DNA from: Rubripirellula tenax
GTDB lineage: Bacteria; Planctomycetota; Planctomycetia; Pirellulales; Pirellulaceae
Reading direction: 5' to 3'
Assembly (NCBI RefSeq): GCF_007860125.1
Contig: NZ_SJPW01000008.1
Location: 1-64,000, forward strand
Length of the DNA: 64,000 bases
Within the stretch, counting starts at the first letter, position 1; each line of letters begins with the position of its first letter. Below the pieces are notes generated by a model that had not been told where the DNA came from, did no database searches, and saw nothing but the letters and a program-made list of their open reading frames with translations. Below, one piece after another: positions 9,481 to 27,874 of this stretch. The translations under genes and the position numbers were made by a program.

Positions 9481-12432
9481 ATGCGAGAACCACTTCCTCT
9501 GACATCCGCCCTCTTGGCGTTTGTGCTGACATCAACATTTGTTTTTACATCGCCGTTGTTTGGCGCGGATCTGTACGTCAGTCCCGACGGAAACGACGTA
9601 AACGCGGGGACGGCTGATTCGCCCCTGGCCAGCCTAGCGCGGGCGAAGGCGTTGGCCCGGCCGGTTTTGGGTAAGGAAACGGTGACGGTGCATGTCGCCG
9701 ATGGCACGTACTACTTGCCCGAAACGCTTGCGTTTGAGCCCGGCGACTCGGGAACTCAAGAGTTTCCGGTCGTCTATCGGGCTGCCAACGAAGGCGGCGC
9801 GATACTAAGCGGTGGCACGCGTTTGGAATTGGTTTGGCAAGCCCACCGCGATGGAGTCTTCGTCGCCAAGACGCCGACCGGCTTGACGATCGACCAACTG
9901 TTCATCGACGGCCAGAACCAACGCATGGCGCGGTACCCGAACTTCGACGCGGCCAAGAAGACGGCGGCCTATCAAGGTTTCTCGGCCGATGCGTTCGCGA
10001 AATCGCGAGCGGACGGATGGGCCAACCCCGTCGGCGGATACATCCACGCGATGCACCGGTCCCGATGGGGCGGATACCACTATCGAATCACCGGCAAGGA
10101 TTCCGAAGGCGAGGTGACCTATGAAGGCGGCTGGCAGAACAATCGCCAAATGGGAATGCACGACGAGTTCCGGATGGTGGAAAACATCTTTGAAGAACTT
10201 GATGCGCCGGGCGAATGGTTCCACGACCCGAGCACACAGTCGCTCTACTACATGCCGTTCGCTGGGACAGATCTACACAGCGCGACCGTTGATGTCGTGC
10301 GTCTTCGTCATTTGATCGAGTTCCGCGGAACGGAAGAAAAGCCGGTTCGATTCATTGCGTTGCAGGGCTTCGTCATTCGCCATGCCGCTCGAACGTTCAT
10401 GGACACCAGCGAGTTGATGCTGCGATCGGACTGGGCGATCTATCGAGGCGGCTCAATCGTGCTGACGGGAACCGAAGACGTTCAGATTCTTGACACCGAA
10501 TTCGATCAAGTCGGTGGCAACGCGGTATTCGTTAGCAATTACAACCGCCGCGCGCTGGTCAAGGGTTGTCACATTCACGATGTCGGCGCGAGCGGAGTTT
10601 GCTTTGTCGGTGATCCTGATGCGGTCCGGGATCCTTTGTTTGGCTATGGCCGAAAAAATGATCTGTCAAAGATCGATCGCACACCCGGGCCGAAAACGAA
10701 CAACTACCCGGCGGACTCGCGCGTCGAAGACTGTTTGATTCATGGAATCGGTCGCGTCGAGAGACAACCGGCGGGCGTTCAAATCGAAATGGCTAGCCGC
10801 ATCACCGTTCGCGACTGTTCCGTTTACGATTGTGCCCGCGCGGGATTGAACGTCGGCGACGGAGCCTGGGGCGGTCATTTGATCGAAGGCTGTGACGTGT
10901 TCGACACGGTGCTAGAAACCCATGACCACGGTTCGTTCAATTCGTGGGGACGCGACCGTTATTGGCGAAGCGATCACTTGACGGCAAGCCAAGCTGCCGT
11001 CGACAAGGATCCCACGTTGCCATTTCTAGATGCCGTCGAAACGACCGTCATTCGCAATAACCGGTTTCGCTGCGACCACGGTTGGGACATCGATCTGGAT
11101 GACGGTTCGTCGAATTACGACATCTACAACAACTTGCTGTTGTCCGGTGGATTGAAGTTGCGAGAAGGCTTCCGCCGTCGGGCGTGGAACAACATTACCG
11201 TCAACAACGGACTGCATCCACACGTTTGGTTCAATCACAGCGACGACGAAGTCTTTGGCAATATTTTCATGTCAGCACCCAAGGGGGCGCGAATGCCAAG
11301 CGAAACGGCCAAGGGCAAACGCGTCGACGGCAATCTGTATTTTTCGAACGATCCGAGCATCAAAGATGTTCATGCTAAATATGGATGGGACGTCCACTCG
11401 ATCGTTGCCGACCCAGGATTTGTCAATCCAAAAGCGGGCGATTTCCGTGTCGCCGACGACTCGCCGGCGCTGCAGATCGGGTTCGCGAACTTTCCGATGG
11501 ATCAGTTCGGTGTTAAGAAACCGAGCCTTCGTGCGATCGCCGAAACGCCGGTGATTCCGACGTTGACGATTGTCGATGCCGAATCACCAGAACGGCGAAC
11601 GCAAGTCGCAAACGAAAAACCGTTCACATATTTCTGGCTGGGTGCAAAGCTGACTGAGTTGACCGGTGAAGCATTCTCGGCATTCGGTGTATCCAAAGAG
11701 GCCGGCGGCGTCGCCTTGTCAGACGTCAAACCGACCAGCGATGCGGCTCGATCGGGGCTAAAAGATGGCGACTTGATTCAGGGCATCAACGGATCCGGCG
11801 TCAAACGCGCTGTCGATCTGTTGGCCGTGTTTCAGAACGGCGACGGAGCGCCTGTGTCGTTGAAGTTGGTTCGCGACCAACAAGCGATGGAGTTGGTCAT
11901 TGAACCGACGGTCGTTGTTTCGTTTGAATCTTCGGAAACGGATGACGGCTTTTCAACGCTGGTCCCCGAAGCACAAACCAACCGAAACGTCGACACGAAT
12001 CTCGGCGTCAAAGAATCACCAACCCGCGTTCTGGTTGATGGCAAATTGAACCGCGGCTACGGCCCTGTTTTTCCAAACGGGGTCACGGGCGGCATCTACC
12101 GCATGGATCTCGGTTCACCCCAGTCCGTGACGGCCATCACGAGCTGGACGTCCAACGTGAACGGAATCCGCGGGGCGCAGAAGTACACGCTTTACGGCAG
12201 TCGCGCGGACAAGGATCCGGGATGGGATGTCGACGATGCATCACGCTTCACCGCGATCGGTTCGGTTGATACGACGTCGGTCAAGTCACAAGCCTTGAAT
12301 GCCGTCTCGGTGCGGGCAAAGACCGGGTCGGATTTGGGCGAGTTCCGCTGGGTCGTTTGGCGGACGTCGCCGGTATCGCCTCGATCGGAAAACTCGGCAT
12401 TCCAAGAATTGAACGTCCAAACGGCGCCTTAG
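9481..12432 (+). CDS. secreted GH141-like beta-helix glycosidase with C-terminal PDZ domain
   Basis: 983 residues from ATG 9481 (a GTG lies just before it). Signal peptide about 1-29, then YVSPDGNDVNAGT, a typical start of secreted right-handed beta-helix enzymes. Residues about 30-660 hold the beta-helix with the VENIFEELDAPGEW block shared with the second such gene at 58245; both resemble GH141, whose characterised members are an alpha-L-fucosidase and a xylanase. Residues about 717-810 look like a PDZ domain (GVALSDVKPTSDAARSGLKDG, then DLIQGINGSGV). The last 165 residues resemble a discoidin-like sandwich. It follows the regulator on the same strand and precedes a GH29 fucosidase. Family assignment rests on motif resemblance only. 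Confidence 0.8.
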   Translation: MREPLPLTSALLAFVLTSTFVFTSPLFGADLYVSPDGNDVNAGTADSPLASLARAKALARPVLGKETVTVHVADGTYYLPETLAFEPGDSGTQEFPVVYRAANEGGAILSGGTRLELVWQAHRDGVFVAKTPTGLTIDQLFIDGQNQRMARYPNFDAAKKTAAYQGFSADAFAKSRADGWANPVGGYIHAMHRSRWGGYHYRITGKDSEGEVTYEGGWQNNRQMGMHDEFRMVENIFEELDAPGEWFHDPSTQSLYYMPFAGTDLHSATVDVVRLRHLIEFRGTEEKPVRFIALQGFVIRHAARTFMDTSELMLRSDWAIYRGGSIVLTGTEDVQILDTEFDQVGGNAVFVSNYNRRALVKGCHIHDVGASGVCFVGDPDAVRDPLFGYGRKNDLSKIDRTPGPKTNNYPADSRVEDCLIHGIGRVERQPAGVQIEMASRITVRDCSVYDCARAGLNVGDGAWGGHLIEGCDVFDTVLETHDHGSFNSWGRDRYWRSDHLTASQAAVDKDPTLPFLDAVETTVIRNNRFRCDHGWDIDLDDGSSNYDIYNNLLLSGGLKLREGFRRRAWNNITVNNGLHPHVWFNHSDDEVFGNIFMSAPKGARMPSETAKGKRVDGNLYFSNDPSIKDVHAKYGWDVHSIVADPGFVNPKAGDFRVADDSPALQIGFANFPMDQFGVKKPSLRAIAETPVIPTLTIVDAESPERRTQVANEKPFTYFWLGAKLTELTGEAFSAFGVSKEAGGVALSDVKPTSDAARSGLKDGDLIQGINGSGVKRAVDLLAVFQNGDGAPVSLKLVRDQQAMELVIEPTVVVSFESSETDDGFSTLVPEAQTNRNVDTNLGVKESPTRVLVDGKLNRGYGPVFPNGVTGGIYRMDLGSPQSVTAITSWTSNVNGIRGAQKYTLYGSRADKDPGWDVDDASRFTAIGSVDTTSVKSQALNAVSVRAKTGSDLGEFRWVVWRTSPVSPRSENSAFQELNVQTAP

Positions 12433-14360: not shown

Positions 14361-14437
14361 CGTTGAGTCACTGAGCGTCAGCGGTATTGGCCTTACGGTG
14401 CGCGGCTGCCCGTTTTTTTTCCCAGGAATCTGAAGCC

Positions 14438-16009
14438 ATGAAGCTCTTCTCGTGCATGTTGATATTCACGTTCCTGGTTGGCAGTTGCGCCAACGGCGCT
14501 GATACGGCGCCGGCGGCGCAGCCCAACGTTTTGTTCCTGTCGATTGATGACTTGAACGACTGGACGGGCGCGATGGGTGGCCATGCGTTGGCGAAGACGC
14601 CGAATCTGGACAAGTTGGCCCAGCAAGGAATCTTGTTCACCAACGCGCACTGTTCGCAAGCCGTTTGCACGGCGTCGCGGAACTCGGTGTTGAGCGGAAT
14701 TCACCCGAGCACCTCGGGTTGGTACACGTCGACGACCAGGATGCGGAAGACGTACGACCAAGTGATGGGGTCGGAACACCGAATGTTGCCCCAGCATTTC
14801 AAAGAGAACGGATATCAAACCTTTGCCGTCGGAAAGGTCTTTCATCAAGGCGTCTCGGATTATGGCGACCGAACGAAAGACTTTTGGACCGAGACGGCGC
14901 CGGGTTACAAAGTGCCCAAGAACTTGCTGGCGCGAGGCGATGGTTACGGCGGAAAGCACTTTTATCCGTTCCCGAAAAACGGCAGCCAGATTGTTGATCG
15001 ATACGGCAAGAAGTATGCCGATGGTCATTCGCTTTGCTACGGCGCATTAGACCGCGACGACATTCCTGGCGGCAAAATGTTTGACGAACAGATTGCCGAT
15101 TGGGCGGTTGAGCAGTTGCAACACGACCACGACAAACCGTTCTTTTTAGCCGTCGGTTTCGTTCGTCCGCATGTCCCGTACACCGCGCCCAAGGAGTATT
15201 TTGACTTGTACGATTTGGACGACATCCAAATTCCGAGCGTGCCCGATGACGAGATGTCGGACATTCCGATGATGGGAAAATCGATCGCCTATGGGACGCT
15301 GCGATCGGGCGACCACAATGCCGTCGTCAATCTCAGCGACACGTATTGGAAAGAAATGGTTTATGGATACTTGGCATGCGTTTCGTTCGTCGACGCCCAG
15401 GCCGGCAAGGTGCTCGATGCGCTGGCGACCAGCAAGTATCGCGACAACACGATCGTGGTCCTCTGGTCGGATCATGGACAACACTTGGGCGAGAAGAAGC
15501 ACTGGCGAAAACAAGCGTTGTGGGAAGAATCGACGCGAGTCCCGTTGATGATGAAGGTGCCTGGCGTCTCGCAACCGGCGACTCAAAGCAGCCAACCGGT
15601 CAGCCTGTTGGATCTGTATCCGACGCTCGTTGAACTATGCGAGTTGCCGAAATTCGAAAAGCTGGAGGGCGAGAGTCTGGTGCCGCTGATCGCTGACCCG
15701 TCGTCGGTGCGAACGCGGCCCGTGCTGAACAGTTGGTACTACGGAAACTATGCCGTGCGAAGTCATGATTGGCGGTACATTTGCTACCGAGACGGCACGG
15801 AAGAATTGTACGACCATCGAAGCGATCCGGGGGAACACGTCAATTTGGCCGGCAATCCCGAGCACGCGAACGTGATTGCCCAGCATCGCGAATGGATTCC
15901 CAAGACGGATGTGCTGCCGGCGGGAACGGATGCGTGGAAGAGCGATTCACTGGATCGCCGCATCGAAAAATGGAATGCCGACGACTCGCTGCCGGATTGG
16001 CTACAGTAG
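14438..16009 (+). CDS. secreted S1 sulfatase, iduronate-2-sulfatase-like
   Basis: 523 residues from ATG 14438, which starts a signal peptide (MKLFSCMLIFTFLVGSC...). NVLFLSIDDLNDW supplies the metal-binding Asp pair. Cys77 lies in CTASR, the C-x-P/A-x-R motif that is converted to formylglycine. Overall closest to the iduronate-2-sulfatase branch of family S1. It lies 77 bp after the GH29 gene. Likely removes sulfate esters from oligosaccharides in the periplasm or outside; position specificity cannot be read from sequence. Confidence 0.93.
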   Translation: MKLFSCMLIFTFLVGSCANGADTAPAAQPNVLFLSIDDLNDWTGAMGGHALAKTPNLDKLAQQGILFTNAHCSQAVCTASRNSVLSGIHPSTSGWYTSTTRMRKTYDQVMGSEHRMLPQHFKENGYQTFAVGKVFHQGVSDYGDRTKDFWTETAPGYKVPKNLLARGDGYGGKHFYPFPKNGSQIVDRYGKKYADGHSLCYGALDRDDIPGGKMFDEQIADWAVEQLQHDHDKPFFLAVGFVRPHVPYTAPKEYFDLYDLDDIQIPSVPDDEMSDIPMMGKSIAYGTLRSGDHNAVVNLSDTYWKEMVYGYLACVSFVDAQAGKVLDALATSKYRDNTIVVLWSDHGQHLGEKKHWRKQALWEESTRVPLMMKVPGVSQPATQSSQPVSLLDLYPTLVELCELPKFEKLEGESLVPLIADPSSVRTRPVLNSWYYGNYAVRSHDWRYICYRDGTEELYDHRSDPGEHVNLAGNPEHANVIAQHREWIPKTDVLPAGTDAWKSDSLDRRIEKWNADDSLPDWLQ

Positions 16010-16058
16010 TTCGATCGAAACTGATTCCATTTTCCACCAAGCATCCAAGGACTTCACC

Positions 16059-17492
16059 TTGTCGCGAAACAAATCTCTGCCCTTTTTGCTCACCAGCGTT
16101 TTGCAGGTTTGCATCGCCATTGCGATGACGATCGGTGCGAGTGCCGCGGCGCCGAACGTGATCCTGCTGATGAGCGACGACCAGGGCTGGGGCGATATCG
16201 GGTTCAACGGCAACGAGGACATCATCACGCCGAACCTTGACGCGATGGCCGCGGATGGAGTTCGTTTCGATCGCTTTTATGCCGCGGCGCCACTTTGCTC
16301 GCCGACACGTGGAAGCTGTTTGACGGGGCGGTTCCCGTTTCGATTTGGGATTTTGGCGGCTCACACTTCGGGGCTTCGCGTCGCAGAAATCACGATCGCC
16401 GAAATGCTGAAGAAGAAGGGTTACGCGACGGGCTTCTTCGGTAAGTGGCACATCGGCTGGGTCAAACCGGAAGAACGTGGAACGCGCGGACACTACTCGC
16501 CACCGTCGCATCACGGGTTCGACGAAGTGTTCGCAACGACCAGCGCCGTGCCGACTTGGGACCCAACCGTTACGCCCGAGGGATGGAAAAGCAACTCGAA
16601 CAAGCCGGGACAGCCTTGGAAGGGCGGATTCCCGTACATGCACAACGGAGTCGAGGCGACGGAGAATTTGGACGGTGACGATAGTCGCGTGATCATGGAC
16701 CGTGTGATCCCGTTCATCGAAGAACGCGTCGCGGCAGGACCGGACGAACGGTTCTTTGCGACCGTTTGGTTCCACACGCCGCATGAACCGGTTGTGGCCG
16801 GTGAAAAGTACAAGAGACTTTACGCGGATCGCGGCAATTCGCGTCAAAACTATTATGGCGCGATCACGGCGATGGACGAACAGGTCGGACGACTGCGCAG
16901 CAAACTCCGCGAGCTGAAGATTGAGAACGACACGCTCGTTTTTTTCTGTAGCGACAACGGCCCGTCCGATGGTTTGGCCAAGAAGGGTGTCGCGTCGGCG
17001 GGGCCGTTCAAGGGTCACAAGCACCAAATGTATGAAGGTGGAATCTTGGTGCCCGCATGTGCTGAGTGGCCGACCAGAATCAAGGCCGGCTCAACAACCA
17101 ACGTGCGTTGTTCGACGATCGATTACTTTCCAACGATCGCAAACGCCGTCGGTTTTTCGTTCTCGGATTCTCAGTCGCGTCCGATCGACGGAATCGACTT
17201 GATGCCAGTCATTCAAGGAGCGTCGGCGCAGCGCGACAAAGACATGTTCTTCGGTTTTCGCCGATTGCATGACGGAACCGATGGTCAGGCCGTGATCCGC
17301 GGTGACTTCAAGCTGTTGCGTGAAGCCAAGCGTGAAGGTCGAACGCGATTGTACGATCTGAAGAAGGATCCTTACGAAACGAACGACATCGGCGAGTCGA
17401 TGCCCGAGTTGTTTCAGTCGATGTCCAGTCGGCTCGAAGAATTAGACGCCAGTTGCCAACAGAGTCGCGACGGTGCGGACTACAGTTACTAA
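16059..17492 (+). CDS. secreted S1 sulfatase (arylsulfatase A-like), TTG start
   Basis: The best start is TTG 16059: it is preceded by AAGGA eight bases upstream and opens a signal peptide (SRNKSLPFLLTSVLQV...ASA), giving 477 residues. An upstream ATG in frame would place the start inside the previous sulfatase gene and is unlikely. NVILLMSDDQGWGD binds the metal; Cys80 in CSPTR is the formylglycine site. The C-terminus carries the usual LYDLKKDPYETND block. Part of the four-sulfatase run; spacing to the previous gene is 49 bp. Confidence 0.92.
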   Translation: MSRNKSLPFLLTSVLQVCIAIAMTIGASAAAPNVILLMSDDQGWGDIGFNGNEDIITPNLDAMAADGVRFDRFYAAAPLCSPTRGSCLTGRFPFRFGILAAHTSGLRVAEITIAEMLKKKGYATGFFGKWHIGWVKPEERGTRGHYSPPSHHGFDEVFATTSAVPTWDPTVTPEGWKSNSNKPGQPWKGGFPYMHNGVEATENLDGDDSRVIMDRVIPFIEERVAAGPDERFFATVWFHTPHEPVVAGEKYKRLYADRGNSRQNYYGAITAMDEQVGRLRSKLRELKIENDTLVFFCSDNGPSDGLAKKGVASAGPFKGHKHQMYEGGILVPACAEWPTRIKAGSTTNVRCSTIDYFPTIANAVGFSFSDSQSRPIDGIDLMPVIQGASAQRDKDMFFGFRRLHDGTDGQAVIRGDFKLLREAKREGRTRLYDLKKDPYETNDIGESMPELFQSMSSRLEELDASCQQSRDGADYSY

Positions 17493-17516
17493 CTTCCTTT
17501 AGGGAAACGATTGCTC

Positions 17517-19055
17517 ATGACAAACACGACTCTCCGATGGGACGCGCCCATGGCTTTGGCTGCGTTGGCACTCTTCGCCGCGTTCAGCTTTTCAGCGCGC
17601 GACGTGCGAGGGGCCGAGGCCGCCAAGCCGAACATCGTTTGGATACTCGCAGACGACTGGGGTTACGGGGACGTCCAGTGCTTGAATCCGAATCGCGGGA
17701 AGATCGCGACACCGGCGATGGACCGGCTTGCTGCGCAGGGGATGACGTTCACCGACGCGCATACGACGTCATCCGTTTGCACGCCCACTCGGTATGGCAT
17801 TCTGACGGGACGATACAACTGGCGGACGCATTTGCAAAAGAGCGTCCTGTACGGTTTTAGCGAACCATTGATCGCCGAAGATCGAATGACGGTCGCCGGA
17901 CTTCTGAAACAGAACGGATACGCGACGGGGGCCATCGGAAAGTGGCACTTGGGTTTGGACTTGCCATTCACCACCGACGAACGGCCGAAGGGTAACAACC
18001 CTGATAACATCGATTGGAAGGGGCGAGTGGGTGGAGGCCCGGTGGACCGTGGATTCGATTACTTCTATGGCATTTCAGCATCGCTGGACATGCCGCCCTA
18101 CATCTACATCGAGAACGATCGTTTCGTCGGGGAAGCAACGGCAACCAAAGCATTCCAACGAAAAGGGCCGGCCGAACCGGATTTTGAAGCAATCGATGTT
18201 TTGCCGATGATCGGGAAGAAGGCGGTTGAGTTTATTTCAAAGCAAGACTCGTCCAAGCCGTTCTTTGCCTATGTTGCTTTCACGTCGCCACACACGCCGA
18301 TCTTGCCGTCAAAAGAATGGCAGGGCAAAAGTGAACTCGGCAAGTACGGCGACTTTGTGATGCAGACCGATGCGGTCATCGGCGACATCGTTGCGGAAAT
18401 CGACCGAGCCGGTTTCGGCGACAACACGTTGGTGATCGTGACCAGCGACAATGGTTGCTCGAAGGCGGCCGGCATTGAAGCGATGCAGGCCAAGGGACAC
18501 TTTCCAAGCGCCAATCTTCGTGGATCGAAGGCCGACTTGTGGGATGGCGGACACCGTGTTCCGTTCATTGCCCGATGGCCGGGTGTTGTCCAGCCTGGAT
18601 CGAAGTCGGATCAAACGGTTTGCCAGGTCGATTTGATGGCGACGTGCGCAGACATCTTAGGCATCGCGATGCCCCCGGGCGCGGGTGAAGACAGCGTCAG
18701 TTTTCGAGCGGCGTTGTCGGACAAGCCGATCGCGTCGACTCGCAAGGGGCTGATTCACCATTCGATCGAGGGAAACTTTGCCTATCGCCAAGGCAAATGG
18801 AAACTGCTGTTGGCTCGCGGATCGGGTGGATGGACTGCGCCGCGAGAAAAGCAAGTGCCGGCCGGCAGCCCCGATGGCCAACTTTATGATATGAGTGCCG
18901 ATCCGGGTGAGACGAACAATCTGTTTGATTCCAAGCCTGAGATCGTGGCGATGCTGTTGGCCGACTTGACCGCCGATGTGGAACGAGGCCGCAGCACCGA
19001 CGGGCCGGACGCAACGAATGATGCACCGATCGTGGTCTGGAAAGGCAAGCAATAG
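17517..19055 (+). CDS. secreted S1 sulfatase (arylsulfatase A-like)
   Basis: 512 residues from ATG 17517; a TTG six bases earlier is also possible, and AGGGA at 17501 could serve either. Signal peptide spans about 1-33. NIVWILADDWGYGD is the metal-binding start and Cys88 in CTPTR is the formylglycine site; KWHLGLDL and TSDNGCS are the other family blocks. The gene follows 24 bp behind the previous sulfatase, so both are probably in one transcript. Confidence 0.93.
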   Translation: MTNTTLRWDAPMALAALALFAAFSFSARDVRGAEAAKPNIVWILADDWGYGDVQCLNPNRGKIATPAMDRLAAQGMTFTDAHTTSSVCTPTRYGILTGRYNWRTHLQKSVLYGFSEPLIAEDRMTVAGLLKQNGYATGAIGKWHLGLDLPFTTDERPKGNNPDNIDWKGRVGGGPVDRGFDYFYGISASLDMPPYIYIENDRFVGEATATKAFQRKGPAEPDFEAIDVLPMIGKKAVEFISKQDSSKPFFAYVAFTSPHTPILPSKEWQGKSELGKYGDFVMQTDAVIGDIVAEIDRAGFGDNTLVIVTSDNGCSKAAGIEAMQAKGHFPSANLRGSKADLWDGGHRVPFIARWPGVVQPGSKSDQTVCQVDLMATCADILGIAMPPGAGEDSVSFRAALSDKPIASTRKGLIHHSIEGNFAYRQGKWKLLLARGSGGWTAPREKQVPAGSPDGQLYDMSADPGETNNLFDSKPEIVAMLLADLTADVERGRSTDGPDATNDAPIVVWKGKQ

Positions 19056-19125
19056 GCATCCATGATGTTACGCTGGTCGTTGTTTGTGTTTTAAGACGAG
19101 TTTCTACGCAAAGGTTAGCTCGAGT

Positions 19126-20616
19126 ATGAAGTCCCGACATTCGTTTTGGTCTCGCGCGATCGCCGTGATTTTCTTGGTCGCCATGTCACTTTCGCCGGCA
19201 ATCTCGGCGGCTGATCCAGCAACGCCGAACTTTGTCGTCTTCTTGGTGGACGACCTTGGCTACATGGACATCGGGGCGAACAACCCGAATTGCTTCTACG
19301 AGACTCCCAATATCGATCGCCTCTCGGAATCAGCGATGCGGTTTACTGACGGATACGCCGCGAATCCGGTTTGCTCGCCAACTCGCTATAGCATGATGAC
19401 GGGCAAGTACCCGACACGTGCGGGTGCAACGAACTTTTTCTCGGGCAAGCGAAGCGGAACATTCAACCCCGCGCCGCTTACAAGTCACATGCCGCTCGAT
19501 GAAATCACGATCGCCCAGACGTTGAAGCAACGAGGCTACGGAACGTTCTTTGCCGGCAAGTGGCACCTTGGCGAATCGGAAGAGTACTTTCCACAGAACC
19601 GTGGCTTTGACGTTAACGTCGGTGGCCATACCGGCGGCGGCCCCTACACGGGCAAGCGGTACTTCGCACCGTTTCAAAATCCGCAGATCGAGGTCGAGAG
19701 TCCGGACGGGGACCATTTGCCCGATCGGTTGTCCCGCGACGCGGCCAGTTACATCGAAGCCAACAAAGACAGTCCGTTTTTGGTGTACCTGTCGTTCTAT
19801 TCCGTTCATACGCCCTTGATGGGTCGGCCCGATTTGGTGAAGAAGTATCAAGCGAAAGCTGCGGCGATCGAAGGCGTAGAGTTCGGCGAAGAAGAGCAAG
19901 TGCTCGGCAACTCGCCTCGGAAAGTTCGCGTGCTGCAAAAGCATGCCGTCTACGCAGCGATGGTCGAAGCGATGGACCAAGCGGTCGGCAAAGTGCTGAA
20001 ACAGCTTGTTGAATCGGGAGTTGCCGATAACACGGTCGTTGTCTTCACATCAGACAACGGCGGGTTGTCGACGTCCGAAGGCTTGCCCACCAGCAACCTG
20101 CCGCTGCGGGGTGGAAAGGGCTGGGTCTATGAAGGCGGCATTCGCGAACCGTGGATCATCCGTTACCCCGGTGTCACCAACCCAGGTTCGGTTTCGAAGC
20201 AACCGATCTGTTCGATCGACCTGTTTCCAACGATTGCGGCGGCGGCCGGTATCGAGTTCGATCATTTGGTAGACGGAGTCGATTTGCGACCAGCGCTCGA
20301 AGGCCGGTCGCTTGATCGGAAATCGTTGTTCTGGCACTACCCGCATTACAGCAACCAAGGTGGCATCCCCGGCGGCGCGATCCGCGAGGGCGACTACAAG
20401 CTGGTCGAGCGGTACGAAGACGGAAGGGTGCATCTTTACGACTTGGCGTCTGACATCGGCGAAGCGACCGACTTGGCCAGTGAGATGCCTGATCGCGTGG
20501 CCCAAATGCGAGATCGCTTGCACGCTTGGTACCAATCGGTGGACGCGAAGTTCTTGCAGCCCAAGGACGGCGCGGTTCCTTGGCAACCAGCGTTCAGAGA
20601 AACGCTGGAAAATTAG
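19126..20616 (+). CDS. secreted S1 sulfatase (arylsulfatase A-like)
   Basis: 496 residues from ATG 19126, which opens a signal peptide ending near SAA (about 1-29). NFVVFLVDDLGYMD, Cys83 in CSPTR (formylglycine site), GKWHLGE and FTSDNGG are all present. It closes the four-sulfatase run; no T-rich terminator is visible behind it, only a weak GC hairpin. Confidence 0.93.
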   Translation: MKSRHSFWSRAIAVIFLVAMSLSPAISAADPATPNFVVFLVDDLGYMDIGANNPNCFYETPNIDRLSESAMRFTDGYAANPVCSPTRYSMMTGKYPTRAGATNFFSGKRSGTFNPAPLTSHMPLDEITIAQTLKQRGYGTFFAGKWHLGESEEYFPQNRGFDVNVGGHTGGGPYTGKRYFAPFQNPQIEVESPDGDHLPDRLSRDAASYIEANKDSPFLVYLSFYSVHTPLMGRPDLVKKYQAKAAAIEGVEFGEEEQVLGNSPRKVRVLQKHAVYAAMVEAMDQAVGKVLKQLVESGVADNTVVVFTSDNGGLSTSEGLPTSNLPLRGGKGWVYEGGIREPWIIRYPGVTNPGSVSKQPICSIDLFPTIAAAAGIEFDHLVDGVDLRPALEGRSLDRKSLFWHYPHYSNQGGIPGGAIREGDYKLVERYEDGRVHLYDLASDIGEATDLASEMPDRVAQMRDRLHAWYQSVDAKFLQPKDGAVPWQPAFRETLEN

Positions 20617-20981
20617 ACTCTCGCGTGATTCGGGCTGAGTGTGCCACTTTGGGCGGAATTCGCTGGCCCTGAGGGGCTTCGGCGCCCCGGCGATGGTTTG
20701 TGAAACAATGCCGGTTTTGCAGATTCTTACTCTTTTACCGTTTCTATCCCCAAAGAAACTAAGCCTTTTCGCCTGACCTGGCCGATACTACCGGCACAAC
20801 CCGAAGTTTTCTAGTTCGGCGAGCTCCTTTCGGGGAGACGATTTGTTGGAAGGATCAAGGTCCTGAAGACAGTTCAACTGGAAATTGGGGGTGCCGGAAG
20901 CTGTTCCGGTACTGGGATGACGGTGGTCGGTTATGGATCGGCTGCCCGAGAAAAATTAACTGCAAGACGGTGGAACAAGCG
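20617..20981 (+). promoter_or_regulatory. 365-bp intergenic region upstream of the barrel gene
   Basis: No gene found. It holds a GGGGC/GCCCC hairpin at 20673-20688 without T-run, then T-rich blocks around 20720-20760, and an inverted repeat CCGGAAgctgTTCCGG near 20894-20909. The length, hairpins and the highly expressed type of gene downstream suggest a promoter with a long structured 5' leader, but no clear -35/-10 pair can be named. Confidence 0.4.
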
Positions 20982-22193
20982 ATGTCGGTACGGAAGCTGA
21001 CTGCAAGTCTACTCACAGCCCTGGCGTTGCTGGGCGGAGTCGCATCTGTGGAAGCCCAGGAGCATTTTCCTGCGGCGGACCCTTTCGCGTTCGATCCCGA
21101 CTTCAATTGGTTCGAGCCGGTCTATGACATGGACTTGGCCGACATGAAGCCGAGCAAGCGAGCGCCAACGGGCTGGTTCGCGACGTACGATCGCTTGAAC
21201 CTTTATGGGTCTCGTCCGGAATTGAACGAGCCGCAAATTGCTGGCTTGTCCGGTACGACGAACGCTCAAACGAAGCTCGACTCGGGCTGGGGGCATCGCT
21301 ACGAAATCGGCTACATGCTGCCGGGCGAGGACAAAGGTTGGACGTTCAACTGGACATCCAACGATGTTCACGAAACGTATGCTGTGCGTCGCGAACGACT
21401 CAACCGGTACAACGGTGGCCAAGTCGTCGGCGGCAGCGGAACCAGTGATACGTTCGGTGCATTCGGGTTTGAAACTCCGCCGGGAACTCGTAACAACGAG
21501 GGCTACAGCTATCGTTTCATCGATATCACCGACTCCTTGAACTTTATCAATTACGACAGCTACGAGCTGAACAAGACTTGGCGAATGGAACCGTATCACT
21601 ACGGCGGCATTCTCGAGCCTTTGGTGGGACTTCGATGGATGCGGCTTAACGACCACAACTATGCCGAAGATTTTGCCATCACCGGACTTTTGCCCGGAGA
21701 CCTGGGCGGAGCGGGCGACTCGGTCGCGGAACAGTTGACCACGGACGAAGCACTCACGACGAACGATATGCTGGGAGCTCAGGTTGGTTTCCGCTACACC
21801 AAGGCGGTGAATCGTTTCACCTACTCGAGTGACTTCAAGTGCTTCTTCGGCGGCAACTACCAGTGCTCGACCTACGACCGAACTATCGAGCGGGTGATTT
21901 ACGACAACCCAGTCACCATCGGCGACCCGCCGATCTTTATTCGATACGACCAGGATTCAGTTCGTCCGACCAACACTCGCAACGAAGAATTCTTTGTCGG
22001 CTTCGACGTTCGCGGTGAAGTCGGATATCAACTGACAAAGATGATCCAAGTCCGAGGTGGTTTCCAAGTCATTGACATCGCTCGCGGCGTTTGGCGAGGA
22101 GGAACCGGTTCGGGTGGTGCCCTGGGTTCGGGTGACAATGACCAAGATTACCTGATGGTCGGCGGTACCTTCGGACTCAGCCTAAACCACTGA
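20982..22193 (+). CDS. BBP7-like outer-membrane beta-barrel protein
   Basis: 403 residues from ATG 20982 (GTG 20970 is an alternative). Signal peptide about 1-26 (VRKLTASLLTALALLGGVASVEAQ). The rest alternates Trp/Tyr/Phe-rich strands and Asn/Gly/Asp turns, as in barrels: GWFATYDRLNLYGSRPE, HRYEIGYMLPGEDKGWTFNW, EPLVGLRWMRLND, EFFVGFDVRGEVGYQLTKM, and a final strand MVGGTFGLSLNH that ends in an aromatic/His residue. It resembles the planctomycete BBP7 group. Likely located in the outer membrane; function unknown. A strong terminator follows. Confidence 0.75.
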   Translation: MSVRKLTASLLTALALLGGVASVEAQEHFPAADPFAFDPDFNWFEPVYDMDLADMKPSKRAPTGWFATYDRLNLYGSRPELNEPQIAGLSGTTNAQTKLDSGWGHRYEIGYMLPGEDKGWTFNWTSNDVHETYAVRRERLNRYNGGQVVGGSGTSDTFGAFGFETPPGTRNNEGYSYRFIDITDSLNFINYDSYELNKTWRMEPYHYGGILEPLVGLRWMRLNDHNYAEDFAITGLLPGDLGGAGDSVAEQLTTDEALTTNDMLGAQVGFRYTKAVNRFTYSSDFKCFFGGNYQCSTYDRTIERVIYDNPVTIGDPPIFIRYDQDSVRPTNTRNEEFFVGFDVRGEVGYQLTKMIQVRGGFQVIDIARGVWRGGTGSGGALGSGDNDQDYLMVGGTFGLSLNH

Positions 22194-22409: not shown

Positions 22410-22592
22410 CTAAGACTTTGTCGCCAACATTCGCAGTTCTTCCAGTTCAACCGTCAAACGATGACGTAACGGGCTTTCGGGACGGAGCTCGTCTTCGAGC
22501 AACTCTTCGGCCTTGTCGAACGTTTCTTCTGTTCGCTCTTCGGTCTTCATCAACTCGCGAAACATAGATTCGACGGTGGACTCGGTAAGCAA
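22410..22592 (-). CDS. small acidic helical protein downstream of the FAAL fusion
   Basis: 60 residues from TTG 22592, selected because GAGGAG stands six bases before it; the same frame is open further upstream to another TTG at 22706 without such a site. The protein is rich in Glu, Leu and Arg (VESMFRELMKTEERTEETFD, then AEELLEDELRPE) and should be mostly helical, perhaps a coiled coil. It is the next frame downstream of the FAAL-ACP-synthase gene on the same strand. No family recognised. An inverted repeat AGGAAAC / GTTTCCT lies in its leader at about 22632-22649. Confidence 0.5.
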   Translation of the reverse strand: MLTESTVESMFRELMKTEERTEETFDKAEELLEDELRPESPLRHRLTVELEELRMLATKS

Positions 22593-22747
22593 GACAATCT
22601 CCTCGAGATTAGGGCAAGTGTCGTTGCTGCGAGGAAACCAAAGTTTCCTATCGCCATCCGCAGCAGCCGCACCCCCTAATTCTAGAACGGCGATCGGGCG
22701 CCGCAAGGGCTAAACCGGATTGCTGGGGTGAAGTGCTTCGCAACGCG

Positions 22748-25700
22748 CTAGGCTTTCGCCTCGAGTTCCAATCCGCCTGACGCAAGTTCGTTCAAGTGGT
22801 CGGCCGTTCGGGCTACCGTAAAGCGAATCTGTTCTTCACTATGCTCGCTGGTGATGAAGAACCGCAGCCGAGCGGCCGATTCATCGACGGCTGGGTACAA
22901 AATGGGTTGAACGTTGATGCCATCGCCCTTCAATCGATTTGACAAACGAAGTGCCAACATTGAATTGCCTGTGATCACCGGAACGACGGGGGTACCGCCG
23001 CTGTCGCCGGTGTCGAGTCCGGCTTCGCGGCACAGCGAGAGAAACAATTCGCTTCGACGTCGCAAACGATCGACGCGATCAGGTTCTTGGTCCAACGTGT
23101 CGATCGCGGCGAGGGCTGCGGCAACTTGTGCGGGTGGCATACCGACACTGAACACGAATCCGGGCGCCGTGTACCGCAGTAACTCGACAAGGGCTTCGCT
23201 GCCGGCGATGTAGCCGCCGCACGACGCCGCACTTTTGCTGAGCGTACCCATCCAGATATCGACGTCACGGGCGTTGATGCCAAAGTGTTCGGCCATCCCA
23301 CGGCCGGTCGGGCCCATCGTGCCGAAACTGTGCGCTTCGTCGACCATCAACATGGCGCGGTGTTTCTTTTTGACTTCGATGAACTTGGGAACGTCCGAGA
23401 AGTCACCGTCCATGCTGTAAACGCCCTCGATGACCACCAAAACGCGTCGGTATTGGTCGCGAAGTTCGGTCAGCATTCGGTCCAATGCCGCGTAATCGTT
23501 GTGCGGAAACGGTCGGCGTCGTGCACCGGACAACAACGCGCCTTGCACGATGCTGTTGTGGGACAGTGCGTCGTGAACGATCAAGTCGCCGGCACCCACC
23601 AAATGGCCAATCGTGGTTTCGTTGGTAGCGTGGCCGCCGACCATCAGGATCGAATTGTCGACGCCGATCCACTGGGCGATGCGTCGTTCAAGCTGTCCGT
23701 GAATGGGCTTTTCACCAGAAACCAACCGACTGGCCGAGACACTTGTGCCGTACTGGCGGACCGCGTTGGCGGCAGCGTCGGAAACGTCCGGGTGACCGCT
23801 CAAACCGAGATAGTTGTAACTCGCAAAGCTGATCAATTCACGCCCGTTGACGATCGTCTTATCACCAACGATGCCGTCGTGAACCGTGAAGTAGGGATTC
23901 GGCACGCCGGTCATCAACATTTGACGCATCGTCGTTTTCAGGCGGCGATATTCCGCAAACTGTTCGACGCTGTCCTCCGCTTCGACTGTCGTCGGTGGGC
24001 GACCGTTTTGAATGACGCTGCTGCGATTGTCGGATCCCGATGCGCCGTCGTCGTCGCTGATACCGCTGCGCAGCATCGCCTCGGCGCGTGCTTCGCCGCC
24101 GGGTGGCAAGTAGCGTTGAATGGCCATCGCCGTTTGGCCGATCGTCTCGATCTCATCCAGAACCTGTTCGGGAAATCGACCGCCAAACGTACGTTCCAAT
24201 TTGCGTGCAATTTCGAGTCGCTCGAGACTGTCCAGTCCCAAGTCCAGCACGATGTTGGTGCCAATGTTCAAGTGTCCCGCCCGTTCGCCGGCGACATGGC
24301 GAACATGATGCCCGATCACTTCAACGATCGCGGCGCTGACATCCGAAGCATCAATCGACTCGGTGCCGCTTGCAGAAGCCGCTTGCATCATCGGCGCGGC
24401 GTTCATCTTTGTACCACCGCCCGATTCTTCCCATCGAACCCACTTCGCGATCAACTTCAAGTCGCCGTCGCGTACCGCGTGCAGGCAAGCATGACGCTGG
24501 ATTTTGCCGCTGCTGGTCTTCGGGATGCTGCTGTTGCGGACCAGGTATACCGCATCGGGTGGCAGTTCATGTTCGGCGGTTACGGCGCGACGGATGGCTT
24601 GGATTTCCGAATCCCAATCCAAGTCGCGTGCCCGTACGGTTTCGGCAACGATCACAAGTTGCTCTCGTCCGTCGTGTTCCATTGCCACGGCGCCGACGGA
24701 TCCGGCTTGGACGGCCTCGGATGCTGCTTCGACGGTCTCTTCGATGTCCTGCGGGTAACGATTCACTCCGCGAACGATGATCATGTCCTTCAACCGGCCC
24801 GAAACGTACAGTTGATGGTCGTACAAGAATCCGAGGTCGCCGGTGCGAAGAAACGGACCGTCATCGTCGATCGTTGTGGCGTGGAACGTTTGTTCCGTGG
24901 CTTCTTTGCGTCGATAGTAGCCTTGGCCGACGGACGGGCTTTGCACCCAGATTTCGCCGATCGAATCGCTGGGCAGCTTTTCGCGGGTTTCCGGGTCGAC
25001 GATGATGACGCGCTCGCTGGACAGCACGGCGCCGCAGCCGACCAAATTCCGCGCCGACGCGTTGTCATCCGATACGGGGCGAACAATCTTTTCTTCTAAA
25101 GCGCGACCATCGAACGTCGTCATCACAGGACGCGGTGTCCGTGGGCCGCCGGTCACCAGCAGCGTTGTTTCGGCCATCCCGTAGCAGGGCAGCGATGCCT
25201 GTGGATTGAATCCATACTTCTGGAACCGCGCCGCAAACTCTTTCAACGTGGATGACCGAATCGGTTCGGCACCGTTGAATGCGATCCGCCAATTGGAAAG
25301 GTCAACGCCTTCCATCTCAGAATCGAGAATCTTATCGGCGCACAGCTGGTACGAAAAGTTCGGCCCGCCACTGATCGTCACGCCGTACTGCGAAATGCCC
25401 TGCAACCAACGTGCTGGGCGTTGCAGGAACGTCATCGGGCTCATCAGCACCGTGGTTCGGCCGGTATACATCGGCATCAACACGCCGCCGACCAGACCCA
25501 TGTCGTGGTACGTCGGCAACCAACTCATGCCGACGAAGTCGACTTCGGGATCAAACGCCTCGAGAATCAATTCGCTATTCGCGATCAGATTGCGATGGTT
25601 CAGCATCACTCCCTTGGGCGATCCCGTCGAGCCACTGGTGTATTGCAACACGGCCAAGGAATGTTCGCTCAATTTTGGCCGTTGCCACCCGCTAAGATTG

Positions 25701-26185
25701 CGACAATTCGGGTTGTCCGTCCCCAGCAATTGAACGCCGATCAAATCGTCGTGCTGTTGATCACCGGAAAGTTGGTCAACGATACTCGAAGTCGACAATG
25801 CCCAGCGTGCATTGGCGTCTACGACGATGGACCGAATCCGCGAAGCCTTGCGGTTTCTTCGCGGCGGATACGCGGGTACGGCTATCGCACCGGCTGCGTG
25901 GCACGCGAAGAAGCCAACAACAAATTCCAATCCGGGTGGATACAGCAACAAGATGCGATCGCCAGCTCGTACGCGACATTCCGTTTGTAGGTAGCCGGCC
26001 AAAGCACGGACTTCATCCCACAATTCGCCATACGTCAAACGCTGTTCCACCGATTCGGTGTCCGTGAAGACGTAGGCAGTCTCACTGTGGCGGTGCGCAG
26101 CCCAATGTTCGATCACTGAGATCAAGTGATCTCTTGGCGGCGGCTCGGGGCCAAAGTACGTATGCAAGTCCACGGAGCAAATCAC
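22748..26185 (-). CDS. three-domain protein: fatty acyl-AMP ligase, acyl carrier protein, alpha-oxoamine synthase
   Basis: 1145 residues from GTG 26185 (a GTG a few codons later is also possible). Residues 1-590 are an adenylating enzyme of the FAAL/FACL type (QYTSGSTGSPKG 181-192, GEIWVQSP, RTGDLGF, catalytic Lys561). Residues about 612-695 are an acyl carrier protein with Ser653 (LGLDSLE) for phosphopantetheine. Residues about 755-1145 are a PLP-dependent synthase of the serine palmitoyltransferase / KAPA synthase group, with MVDEAHSFGTMG and PLP lysine Lys984 (TLSKSAASCGGY). The parts suggest activation of a fatty acid, loading on the fused carrier, and decarboxylative condensation with an amino acid to an alpha-amino ketone. 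A divergent asparagine-synthetase-like gene faces it. Confidence 0.92.
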   Translation of the reverse strand: MICSVDLHTYFGPEPPPRDHLISVIEHWAAHRHSETAYVFTDTESVEQRLTYGELWDEVRALAGYLQTECRVRAGDRILLLYPPGLEFVVGFFACHAAGAIAVPAYPPRRNRKASRIRSIVVDANARWALSTSSIVDQLSGDQQHDDLIGVQLLGTDNPNCRNLSGWQRPKLSEHSLAVLQYTSGSTGSPKGVMLNHRNLIANSELILEAFDPEVDFVGMSWLPTYHDMGLVGGVLMPMYTGRTTVLMSPMTFLQRPARWLQGISQYGVTISGGPNFSYQLCADKILDSEMEGVDLSNWRIAFNGAEPIRSSTLKEFAARFQKYGFNPQASLPCYGMAETTLLVTGGPRTPRPVMTTFDGRALEEKIVRPVSDDNASARNLVGCGAVLSSERVIIVDPETREKLPSDSIGEIWVQSPSVGQGYYRRKEATEQTFHATTIDDDGPFLRTGDLGFLYDHQLYVSGRLKDMIIVRGVNRYPQDIEETVEAASEAVQAGSVGAVAMEHDGREQLVIVAETVRARDLDWDSEIQAIRRAVTAEHELPPDAVYLVRNSSIPKTSSGKIQRHACLHAVRDGDLKLIAKWVRWEESGGGTKMNAAPMMQAASASGTESIDASDVSAAIVEVIGHHVRHVAGERAGHLNIGTNIVLDLGLDSLERLEIARKLERTFGGRFPEQVLDEIETIGQTAMAIQRYLPPGGEARAEAMLRSGISDDDGASGSDNRSSVIQNGRPPTTVEAEDSVEQFAEYRRLKTTMRQMLMTGVPNPYFTVHDGIVGDKTIVNGRELISFASYNYLGLSGHPDVSDAAANAVRQYGTSVSASRLVSGEKPIHGQLERRIAQWIGVDNSILMVGGHATNETTIGHLVGAGDLIVHDALSHNSIVQGALLSGARRRPFPHNDYAALDRMLTELRDQYRRVLVVIEGVYSMDGDFSDVPKFIEVKKKHRAMLMVDEAHSFGTMGPTGRGMAEHFGINARDVDIWMGTLSKSAASCGGYIAGSEALVELLRYTAPGFVFSVGMPPAQVAAALAAIDTLDQEPDRVDRLRRRSELFLSLCREAGLDTGDSGGTPVVPVITGNSMLALRLSNRLKGDGINVQPILYPAVDESAARLRFFITSEHSEEQIRFTVARTADHLNELASGGLELEAKA

Positions 26186-26209
26186 CGTTCGGTCGGCGGG
26201 GGGAAAGGA

Positions 26210-26244
26210 CGTTATTCTAACTCGACGAATCCACTAGGATAACG
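26210..26244. promoter_or_regulatory. inverted repeat in the divergent FAAL / Asn-synthetase-like promoter region
   Basis: CGTTATTCTA at 26210-26219 and TAGGATAACG at 26235-26244 form a ten-base inverted repeat with one mismatch and a 15-base spacer. It lies 25 bp ahead of the FAAL start and about 205 bp ahead of the facing gene. Candidate shared operator; unproven. Confidence 0.4.
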
Positions 26245-26449
26245 GAACGGACATTCGCGTCACCTTGCCTGCGTGACTTTCCCCCAAAATATCAGGTTTG
26301 GGGAGGAAATGACGCTTTGGCCCAGTTTGTTCGCTAATCGCTTACGAAGTTCAGAATGTCAGAGTCCCAACGGGGGGAGCCCACGGGCATCCATGGGCCG
26401 GCCCTCGTTGCCCTACCTCTACTGCACCTATTTTCGGAATCACCGATCG

Positions 26450-27874
26450 ATGACGACTGCTAAATCAACCGGCACGAACGAATCGTCGCAACCGACAAAT
26501 GTGAATGATCGGTCGACAAAACTTTCCGCCAAATCGCCCGCGGTTGGCCAACCCTTGGAATTGATTGATCGCGTTGTGGATCTTTTGGACCCGACCGGCG
26601 ACATCTTGCTTGGTATGAATCGAAACCAAGCATGCGAAGCCGTTCGCAGCGGGAATGTCGAAGCGGTCCGTCGAATCGGCGGTCAATTCGCCATCCTGCA
26701 ACAATCCGGCAAGACGATCCGTATGGCCCGTTCGATCGGTCGACCGATGAGATACTTTTTGGCCAAACGCGCCGAAGGGCCTGCTTTGATCGTCGCCGAA
26801 CGGATGGACGAAATCGCCCAGCAGCTTGCCAAAGAAGGATTGGCGGACCAGTTCCGCCCGGCCTACACACGGATGGTTCCGGCCCATCACTTGTTGGAAC
26901 TGCAGTTGGTCGGATGTCCTGATCCGAATCCGAAGCTGCACCGATATTTTGCACCGCCTCGCAATCGGTTGCCCACCAACATTGAAGCCATCGGACGATC
27001 GTACATCGGTCGGCTCGCCGAAACGATTGACGCTTGGTTGGACACGATGCCGTCGGACGAACCGATCGGTGTCATGTTTAGTGGAGGCGTGGATAGCGGC
27101 GCCGTATTGATGGTGACGGATTTCTTGATCCGCCGTCGAGGACAATCGTCTTCGCGGCTAAAGGCGTTCACGTTGTCGGTCGATGGCAATGCGACCGATC
27201 CGCAACAAGCGACTGAGTTTTTGAAGCAGATCAACCGTGAAATGTTGCTGGAAATCATATCGGTTCCCAAAGCCGATGTTTCTTGGCGCGATGCGATCGC
27301 GGTGATCGAAGACTACAAACCGCTCGACGTGCAATCGGCGACGATGGGCTTGACGCTACTTCGTGAAGTTCGGCGCCGCTATCCCGATTGGCGCTGTCTG
27401 ATCGATGGCGACGGTGGCGACGAGAACTTAAAAGACTATCCGATCGAGGAAAATCCTGAATTGACAATCCGCAGTGTGCTTGGGAATCGGATGCTCTATC
27501 AAGAAGGCTGGGGCGTCGACGCGGTGAAACACTCGTTGACGTATAGCGGCGGGCAAAGCCGTGGCCATGTCCGCACAAGTGCGCCGGCGACGTCGCTGGG
27601 CTTCCGTGGTTTCAGCCCGTTTGCGGTGCCCGATGTGATCGAAGTCGCCGAGGCCATCCCGTTTGTCGATCTGACGGACTGGGATCATGAACGACTCTAC
27701 GGACTCAAAGGACAAGTCGTTGCATCGGGGGTCAAGCAGATCACGGGTGAAACGATGCCTGTGTTCCCAAAGCAGCGGTTCCAACGTGGTGCCGTTGATA
27801 AAGCAACGTTCGAGGCGGTGTTCCCAAAGTCCGACCGCGAGTATCGCGAAGCATTTGATCAACTGTTCGCGTAG
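26450..27874 (+). CDS. asparagine-synthetase-like PP-loop protein without catalytic Cys
   Basis: 474 residues from ATG 26450; the frame is open further upstream but those residues are not protein-like. The C-terminal half is an asparagine synthetase B fold: PP-loop SGGVDSG (211-217) for ATP, and IDGDGGDENL further on. Residues about 70-130 look like a degenerate N-terminal glutaminase domain (RRIGGQFAILQQSGKTIRMARSIG), but the essential Cys2 is missing, as in beta-lactam synthetase and other natural-product relatives. It therefore probably adenylates a carboxylate and joins it to an amine other than ammonia from glutamine. It is divergent from the FAAL-ACP-synthase gene. Confidence 0.8.
   Translation: MTTAKSTGTNESSQPTNVNDRSTKLSAKSPAVGQPLELIDRVVDLLDPTGDILLGMNRNQACEAVRSGNVEAVRRIGGQFAILQQSGKTIRMARSIGRPMRYFLAKRAEGPALIVAERMDEIAQQLAKEGLADQFRPAYTRMVPAHHLLELQLVGCPDPNPKLHRYFAPPRNRLPTNIEAIGRSYIGRLAETIDAWLDTMPSDEPIGVMFSGGVDSGAVLMVTDFLIRRRGQSSSRLKAFTLSVDGNATDPQQATEFLKQINREMLLEIISVPKADVSWRDAIAVIEDYKPLDVQSATMGLTLLREVRRRYPDWRCLIDGDGGDENLKDYPIEENPELTIRSVLGNRMLYQEGWGVDAVKHSLTYSGGQSRGHVRTSAPATSLGFRGFSPFAVPDVIEVAEAIPFVDLTDWDHERLYGLKGQVVASGVKQITGETMPVFPKQRFQRGAVDKATFEAVFPKSDREYREAFDQLFA

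Follow-up and report, generated by a model that had tools for sequence, protein, structure and literature searches.

Do two genes that share a promoter region also share a pathway? The question is raised by a back-to-back pair in a 64,000-nucleotide stretch of Rubripirellula tenax DNA (the window; contig C8 of a genome assembled into 42 contigs, 8.0 Mb in total). One gene (22748..26185, minus strand) encodes a 1145-residue fusion of a fatty acyl-AMP ligase (FAAL), an acyl carrier protein (ACP), and an alpha-oxoamine synthase. The other (26450..27874, plus strand) encodes an ATP-dependent ligase that resembles asparagine synthetase (AsnS) and beta-lactam synthetase and is devoid of the cysteine at position 2 (Cys2). 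An earlier note, made from the sequence of the window, proposed that a long-chain aminoketone is produced by the fusion and amidated in a second step by the AsnS-like protein. The data presented below point elsewhere: the two genes are probably functionally separate, and the AsnS-like protein would act as the ligase in a pathway of three enzymes whose genes are split, together with a radical S-adenosylmethionine (rSAM) enzyme and a flavin-halogenase-like protein (hereafter, flavoprotein).

Gene partners of the AsnS-like ligase

The earlier note had suggested a search for the same gene pair in other planctomycetes. Among 246 genomes of the order Pirellulales (all genome sets used here were drawn, not exhaustive, and many of their members are fragmented assemblies), the fusion was matched in 240 (whole-genome search, E ≤ 1e-100). 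The ligase was matched in 49 at 1e-5, 47 of them strongly (E below 1e-160); the two weak matches, at about 1e-6, were dropped from the counts. Gene neighborhoods were compared in 100 ligase loci (97 distinct), which include the best 80 of 521 confirmed relatives and are thus biased to the window's kin. The fusion stands divergently beside the ligase in 16 of these loci (14 distinct), or in 13 of the 83 distinct ones whose sequence upstream of the ligase extends over 2.5 kb or more. The aminoketone-then-amidation pathway can be supported by this arrangement, found in the window and kept in those 13 loci, and by the 68–78% identity to the window's ligase seen over all 16 pair loci. However, the fusion is present in 240 genomes and the ligase in 47, and 70 of the 83 loci have no fusion beside the ligase. 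The inverted repeat in the shared promoter does not recur in relatives, and in the phylum of Roseithermus (Rhodothermota in NCBI), where the fusion was not searched for, the neighbors of the ligase are the rSAM enzyme and the flavoprotein. With the pair mostly not adjacent and the presence counts unlike, a single pathway of fusion and ligase is quite unlikely.

The same neighborhoods provide other candidates. The rSAM gene occurs in 37 of the 100 ligase loci, in 36 of them on the ligase strand and mostly directly downstream, and the flavoprotein gene in 32 (28 on the ligase strand); both partners are found together in 30. In whole-genome searches of the 246 genomes, performed with one member of each family as the query, the rSAM enzyme was strongly matched in 43 (45 at 1e-5, two near 1e-6 being dropped) and the flavoprotein in 44 at 1e-25. 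The ligase coincides with the rSAM enzyme in 42 genomes and with the flavoprotein in 43; all three are present in 40 genomes and any of them in 48, so that the partners occur without the ligase in one genome only (G171). Fisher's test gives p-values of 1e-40 to 4e-42 for the co-occurrence of the trio genes. Ligase and rSAM starts lie at most 3.5 kb apart in 20 of the 42 genomes having both, and rSAM and flavoprotein starts in 31 of 41.

The genome of the window belongs to those with a split trio. The ligase lies beside the fusion, and the rSAM gene (C1:855179-856033) and the flavoprotein gene (C1:856030-857448) lie together on contig C1, on one strand and with a four-base overlap; because they are on another contig, these partners could not be seen by the earlier note, which called the pair the best candidate in the window for an undescribed system. 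The ligase does seem to be part of such a system, but with partners other than the fusion. At one locus, L035 of genome G216, the ligase is flanked by the fusion and, on its opposite side, by an rSAM homologue, although the open reading frame (ORF) of the latter, 227 aa as called, is short and without a Pfam match. This locus hints at an order of events in which the ligase first became a neighbor of the fusion and the rSAM partner moved away only later.

The association extends beyond the order. In the phylum of the window, the ligase was found at 1e-40 in 13 of 294 genomes, two from the same family as the window and eleven from another family of the class. All eleven also have the rSAM gene (nine in the loci, two elsewhere) and the flavoprotein gene (four in the loci, seven elsewhere). 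Eight ligase-free control genomes from the same two families yielded no rSAM match stronger than 6.3e-8 and no flavoprotein match stronger than 2.7e-26. In the Roseithermus phylum, 17 of 296 genomes have the ligase; 16 of these 17 loci were examined, and within 6 kb the rSAM gene was found in 16 and the flavoprotein gene in 15. In three of them, the ligase and rSAM genes are separated by one other gene. At the remaining locus the contig ends, and the flavoprotein gene is located elsewhere in that genome. The rSAM gene was also found in all eight further ligase genomes (Rhodothermales, Bacteroidota, and planctomycetes by title). Clusterings of the trio loci revealed no further gene or small peptide that travels with the trio; distant transporters and regulators were not searched for. 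As a side observation, genome G303 carries a fragment of a second ligase (L187:8823-9077) upstream of the full copy (9626-11020), suggesting duplication and decay.

The three enzymes and their possible chemistry

The ligase ORF spans 26273-27874 on the plus strand. A GTG start at 26273 would add 59 residues to the protein, but the gene probably begins with the ATG at 26450, because the unconserved leader (about 37 residues) then has a length similar to that in congeners (about 33) and residues 1-38 are modeled with a predicted local distance difference test (pLDDT) score below 50. From neither start does a cysteine occur at position 2, and the pyrophosphatase (PP) loop reads SGGVDSG; the earlier description of a divergent gene for a Cys2-less PP-loop protein was thus confirmed. 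PF00733 is found in 42 of 42 aligned members, which places them in the AsnS/beta-lactam synthetase superfamily, and the absence of Cys2 sets the protein apart from glutamine-dependent asparagine synthetases. The ATP-pyrophosphatase core (27041..27460, plus strand) contains the SGGxDS and DGDGGDEN motifs, and S211, G212, G213, D215, and S216 of the former are invariant in the 42-member alignment. The sole cysteine invariant in all 42 sequences is Cys156, within GCPDP. Among structures in the PDB, the sequence profile matches asparagine synthetase chains only, at 1.4e-5. The predicted model (pLDDT 81.8, with residues 337-363 and some others of low confidence) was compared using Foldseek and matched beta-lactam synthetase (1mc1, 1.5e-11), human ASNS (3.4e-11), TsnB9 (2.4e-10), and carbapenam synthetase (1.5e-8) over about 440 columns with TM-scores of about 0.5–0.6. 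The predicted fold and the SGGxDS loop are thus common to the ligase and the beta-lactam, carbapenam, and asparagine synthetases, whereas the lack of Cys2, the gene partners, and a profile reaching only asparagine synthetases distinguish it. Judging from the model, the likeness to beta-lactam synthetase would be a similarity of fold only.

The rSAM family is defined by a CX3CX2C motif whose cysteines (C41, C45, and C48) are invariant in 32 of 32 members; the motif is present in the copy from the window's genome as well. A C-terminal cysteine cluster is carried by most other aligned members and is missing from three copies in the window's kin (L151:9180-10034, L154:9115-9993, and L155:9283-10155). 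No sequence match in the PDB was obtained at 0.01. The model (pLDDT 91.7) matches radical SAM folds, which agrees with membership of the rSAM superfamily; it matches MgmA best (2.8e-8, TM-score 0.59), then TsrM, MiaB, and lipoyl synthase, and Elp3 is also among the fold matches. For three members, the best NCBIfam model is RaSEA (TIGR01210), with 97, 97, and 111 bits, about half of the curated cut-off of 212, so that they fall outside that family; in one member, the model covers positions 3-295 of 313. RaSEA and the trio enzyme share CX3CX2C and differ in that the latter is bacterial, scores at half of the cut-off, and has MgmA as its best fold match. We know of no structure of RaSEA.

Of all structures, those of PltM (1.9e-79) and tetracycline 7-halogenase (CtcP, 2.7e-73) are by far the strongest matches of the flavoprotein profile, each across about 415 positions. 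A lysine invariant in 31 of 31 members, and present in the copy from the window's genome, aligns with Lys87 of PltM. This residue is reported to be catalytic and the K87A variant to be inactive (PMC6424973). The strong profile match is common to both halogenases and the invariant lysine links the family to PltM; the gene neighbors differ. The vanadium enzyme of Rhodopirellula treated in PMC12871659 is not the flavoprotein of the trio.

The observed presence and co-occurrence of the three genes, their adjacency elsewhere, the predicted folds, and the conserved motifs lead us to infer one pathway, and the steps proposed for it, with their order and product, are conditional on this. The ligase would adenylate a carboxylate and then couple it to an amine, which may belong to that molecule or to a second one, a reaction suggested because the glutaminase cysteine is missing. 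The flavoprotein would most likely halogenate (or hydroxylate) an aromatic ring, and the rSAM enzyme would make or break a C–C or C–N bond. The product would be an amide or a lactam, perhaps a halogenated aromatic one. The statement of the earlier note that Cys-less AsnS relatives form amide or lactam bonds, like its domain reading, fits the domain and fold matches.

A more specific version can be drawn by analogy to archaeal tRNA, where ArcS and RaSEA act on preQ0. The substrate of RaSEA is the adduct that ArcS forms between lysine and preQ0, and the two proteins assemble into a complex (PMC11298593). By this analogy, amidation would be glutamine-free: the ligase might couple the amine of an amino acid (e.g., lysine) to an aromatic carboxylate, the RaSEA-like enzyme would cleave the C–N bond to leave a primary amide, and the flavoprotein would halogenate the ring. 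Amidation in two such steps would account for the association of a Cys-less ligase with a relative of RaSEA, but this hypothesis is considered unlikely in its detail. If the comparison with RaSEA is taken literally, the substrate of the trio could instead be a nucleic acid or tRNA, as is that of RaSEA in the synthesis of archaeosine. This can be supported by RaSEA being the nearest NCBIfam model for the three rSAM members, by MiaB and Elp3 among the fold matches, and by the unusually high conservation of the ligase. However, the RaSEA scores reach only about half of the cut-off, and the closest matches of the flavoprotein are phenol and tetracycline halogenases, so a role in nucleic acid modification is very unlikely.

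The third alternative is that the trio modifies a ribosomal peptide, with the ligase as the cyclase and the other two proteins as tailoring enzymes, similar to pathways for ribosomally synthesized and post-translationally modified peptides (RiPPs). Lasso peptides are cyclized by Cys-less AsnS relatives, and both rSAM enzymes and flavin halogenases have peptide substrates in known systems. The weak matches of the flavoprotein to the QhpG, LodB, and GoxB models are consistent with this proposal. Against it stands the survey of small ORFs within 800 bp of trio genes at 130 loci: the 15 largest clusters span at most 11 loci each and, by eye, resemble shadow frames of conserved genes. No RiPP precursor was found in these 15 clusters, and a distant one was not searched for. 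A peptide substrate is, on this evidence, improbable.

The preferred reading, of a ligase acting with the rSAM enzyme and the flavoprotein, is itself challenged by several observations. Only a minority of the ligase loci hold either partner (37 and 32 of 100). The p-values of co-occurrence ignore kinship, and since the genomes are related, independence is overstated. The rSAM match is missing in 5 of the 47 ligase genomes (G040, G128, G163, G223, and G228) and the flavoprotein match in 4 (G004, G128, G211, and G223). A repeated search of the five rSAM-gap genomes with the profile gave nothing in four and, in G163, a 61-position rSAM fragment beside the flavoprotein gene; the four flavoprotein-gap genomes contain no close match (best 1.0e-23). 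Some of these absences may be real, because the seven assemblies concerned, though fragmented (160–960 contigs), are rated 86–99% complete. The mean column identity is also uneven, 65% for the ligase compared to 39% for the rSAM enzyme and 45% for the flavoprotein. Flavin halogenases carry a WxWxIP motif. The consensus of the flavoprotein profile, the only level at which this was compared, reads WxWxLR where PltM has WLWVIP, and halogenation is not assured for this reason. Finally, the divergent fusion–ligase arrangement is kept among relatives with 68–78% identical ligases, which makes co-regulation of the two genes possible.

The fusion enzyme and its surroundings

The architecture of the fusion proposed in the earlier note is borne out by domain models and motifs. 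Pfam recognizes AMP-binding (residues 26-424), PF23024 (AMP-dom_DIP2-like; 467-580), a carrier domain (630-686), and Aminotran_1_2 (783-1121). The FAAL part comprises residues 21-582 (24440..26125, minus strand, as for the other parts); both AMP-binding and PF23024 score above their cut-offs, as expected for the FAAL type, and FAAL-type NCBIfam models give 319–446 bits, each under its own cut-off. Its solved relatives include 7r7e (the best, 5e-161), 3kxw, and FadD23/FadD32. In the carrier domain (24128..24298; PF00550, 2.3e-8), Ser653 sits inside DLGLDSL, with the DSL motif. In the alpha-oxoamine synthase part (residues 755-1131; 22793..23923), Lys984 lies inside GTLSKS, and the closest solved relatives are an enzyme of the 8-amino-7-oxononanoate synthase/2-amino-3-ketobutyrate CoA ligase (AONS/KBL) type (1.9e-67) and serine palmitoyltransferase (SPT, 1.6e-63).

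Because of these relatives, the pyridoxal phosphate (PLP) part likely catalyzes a decarboxylating condensation of an acyl group with an amino acid. Among the matches listed (25 rows), every curated NCBIfam cut-off exceeds the score of this part: 350 bits compared to 426 for BioF, 294 to 460 for KBL, and 307 to 640, 280 to 500, and 215 to 670 for the SPT equivalogs. The amino acid used is left unassigned for this reason. The possibility that the fusion serves as the BioF of the genome is also unlikely, as a stand-alone gene scores 398 bits vs 353 for the fusion, neither above the cut-off. In a Black Sea study, 138 Planctomycetota metagenome-assembled genomes with Spt-like proteins are reported (PMC11334938); the sphingolipid assignment of the fusion is left open. 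In the proposed mechanism, the FAAL part would convert a fatty acid to acyl-AMP and load it onto Ser653, and the PLP domain (Lys984) would condense this chain with an amino acid, releasing CO2. The fusion, which is near-universal in the order, would then be an acyl-aminoketone (sphingoid-base-like) synthase contained in one polypeptide. All three catalytic parts known from SPT, AONS, KBL, and stand-alone FAALs are recognizable in it, but unlike those proteins it is a single chain that includes the carrier domain. In the openly licensed literature searched, no text was found that joins FAAL with an oxoamine synthase, and no description of the fusion was found in titles or starts of abstracts among the matches listed.

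By eye, one continuous match covering at least 949 of the 1145 residues is the best listed match in 91 genomes; in the remaining listed genomes the matches are partial or split, so the count of 240 does not establish full length for all. Among the 27 loci classed as fusion, the median ORF length is 1149 residues. One of the six unmatched genomes (G005) is a single contig rated 95% complete. In other families, the neighbors of the fusion are KsgA-like, riboflavin synthase, TIM-barrel, PQQ-repeat, and TraB-like genes, which give no clue to a pathway.

Downstream of the fusion, on the same strand, lies a small acidic ORF of 60 aa (22410..22592) with a TTG start at 22592 and GAGGAG six bases upstream. 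It is likely a real gene, as the earlier note had assumed, since its profile, applied to 37 fusion loci (two pairs of which share one contig, and two of which end directly downstream of the fusion), finds a match close to the fusion in 18. In 17 of these 18, the match is downstream on the same strand, and in one (L070) it is on the opposite side; the loci span at least four families of the order. The protein contains a conserved motif, ELRPESPLRHRL, matches no Pfam or NCBIfam model, and could be a partner of the fusion.

With the start at 26450, the shared divergent promoter region (26186..26449) would be about 264 bp long, not 87. The inverted repeat described in the earlier note does exist, with arms at 26210-26219 and 26235-26244 paired at 9 of 10 positions, but it is weak, one of five such pairs in 311 bp, and none of 16 aligned relatives shows it as a repeat. 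One arm (TAGGATAACG) can be recognized by eye in two of these relatives (L035 and L076). A conserved promoter repeat was rejected.

Elsewhere in the window, four sulfatase genes (PF00884) stand in tandem at 14387-20616 on the plus strand. The gene after them, at 20970-22193, matches a BBP7 beta-barrel, though with a score below the cut-off, and has relatives in 11 of 41 clustered regions, the window counted.

Meaning of the gene set

The presence of the fusion in 240 of 246 genomes gives no sign of a special pathway at this locus, and a misleading lead is thereby removed. Among the matches listed from the openly licensed literature, neither titles nor starts of abstracts treat the trio or mention the three enzyme types together. 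The trio is present in two phyla. Since the partners often lie apart on the chromosome, tools that consider only neighboring genes would miss it. If the glutamine-free route is correct, a halogenated aromatic amide would be common to Planctomycetota and Rhodothermota. The trio represents a concrete gene set whose product could be a target for mass spectrometry, possibly with a halogen isotope pattern.

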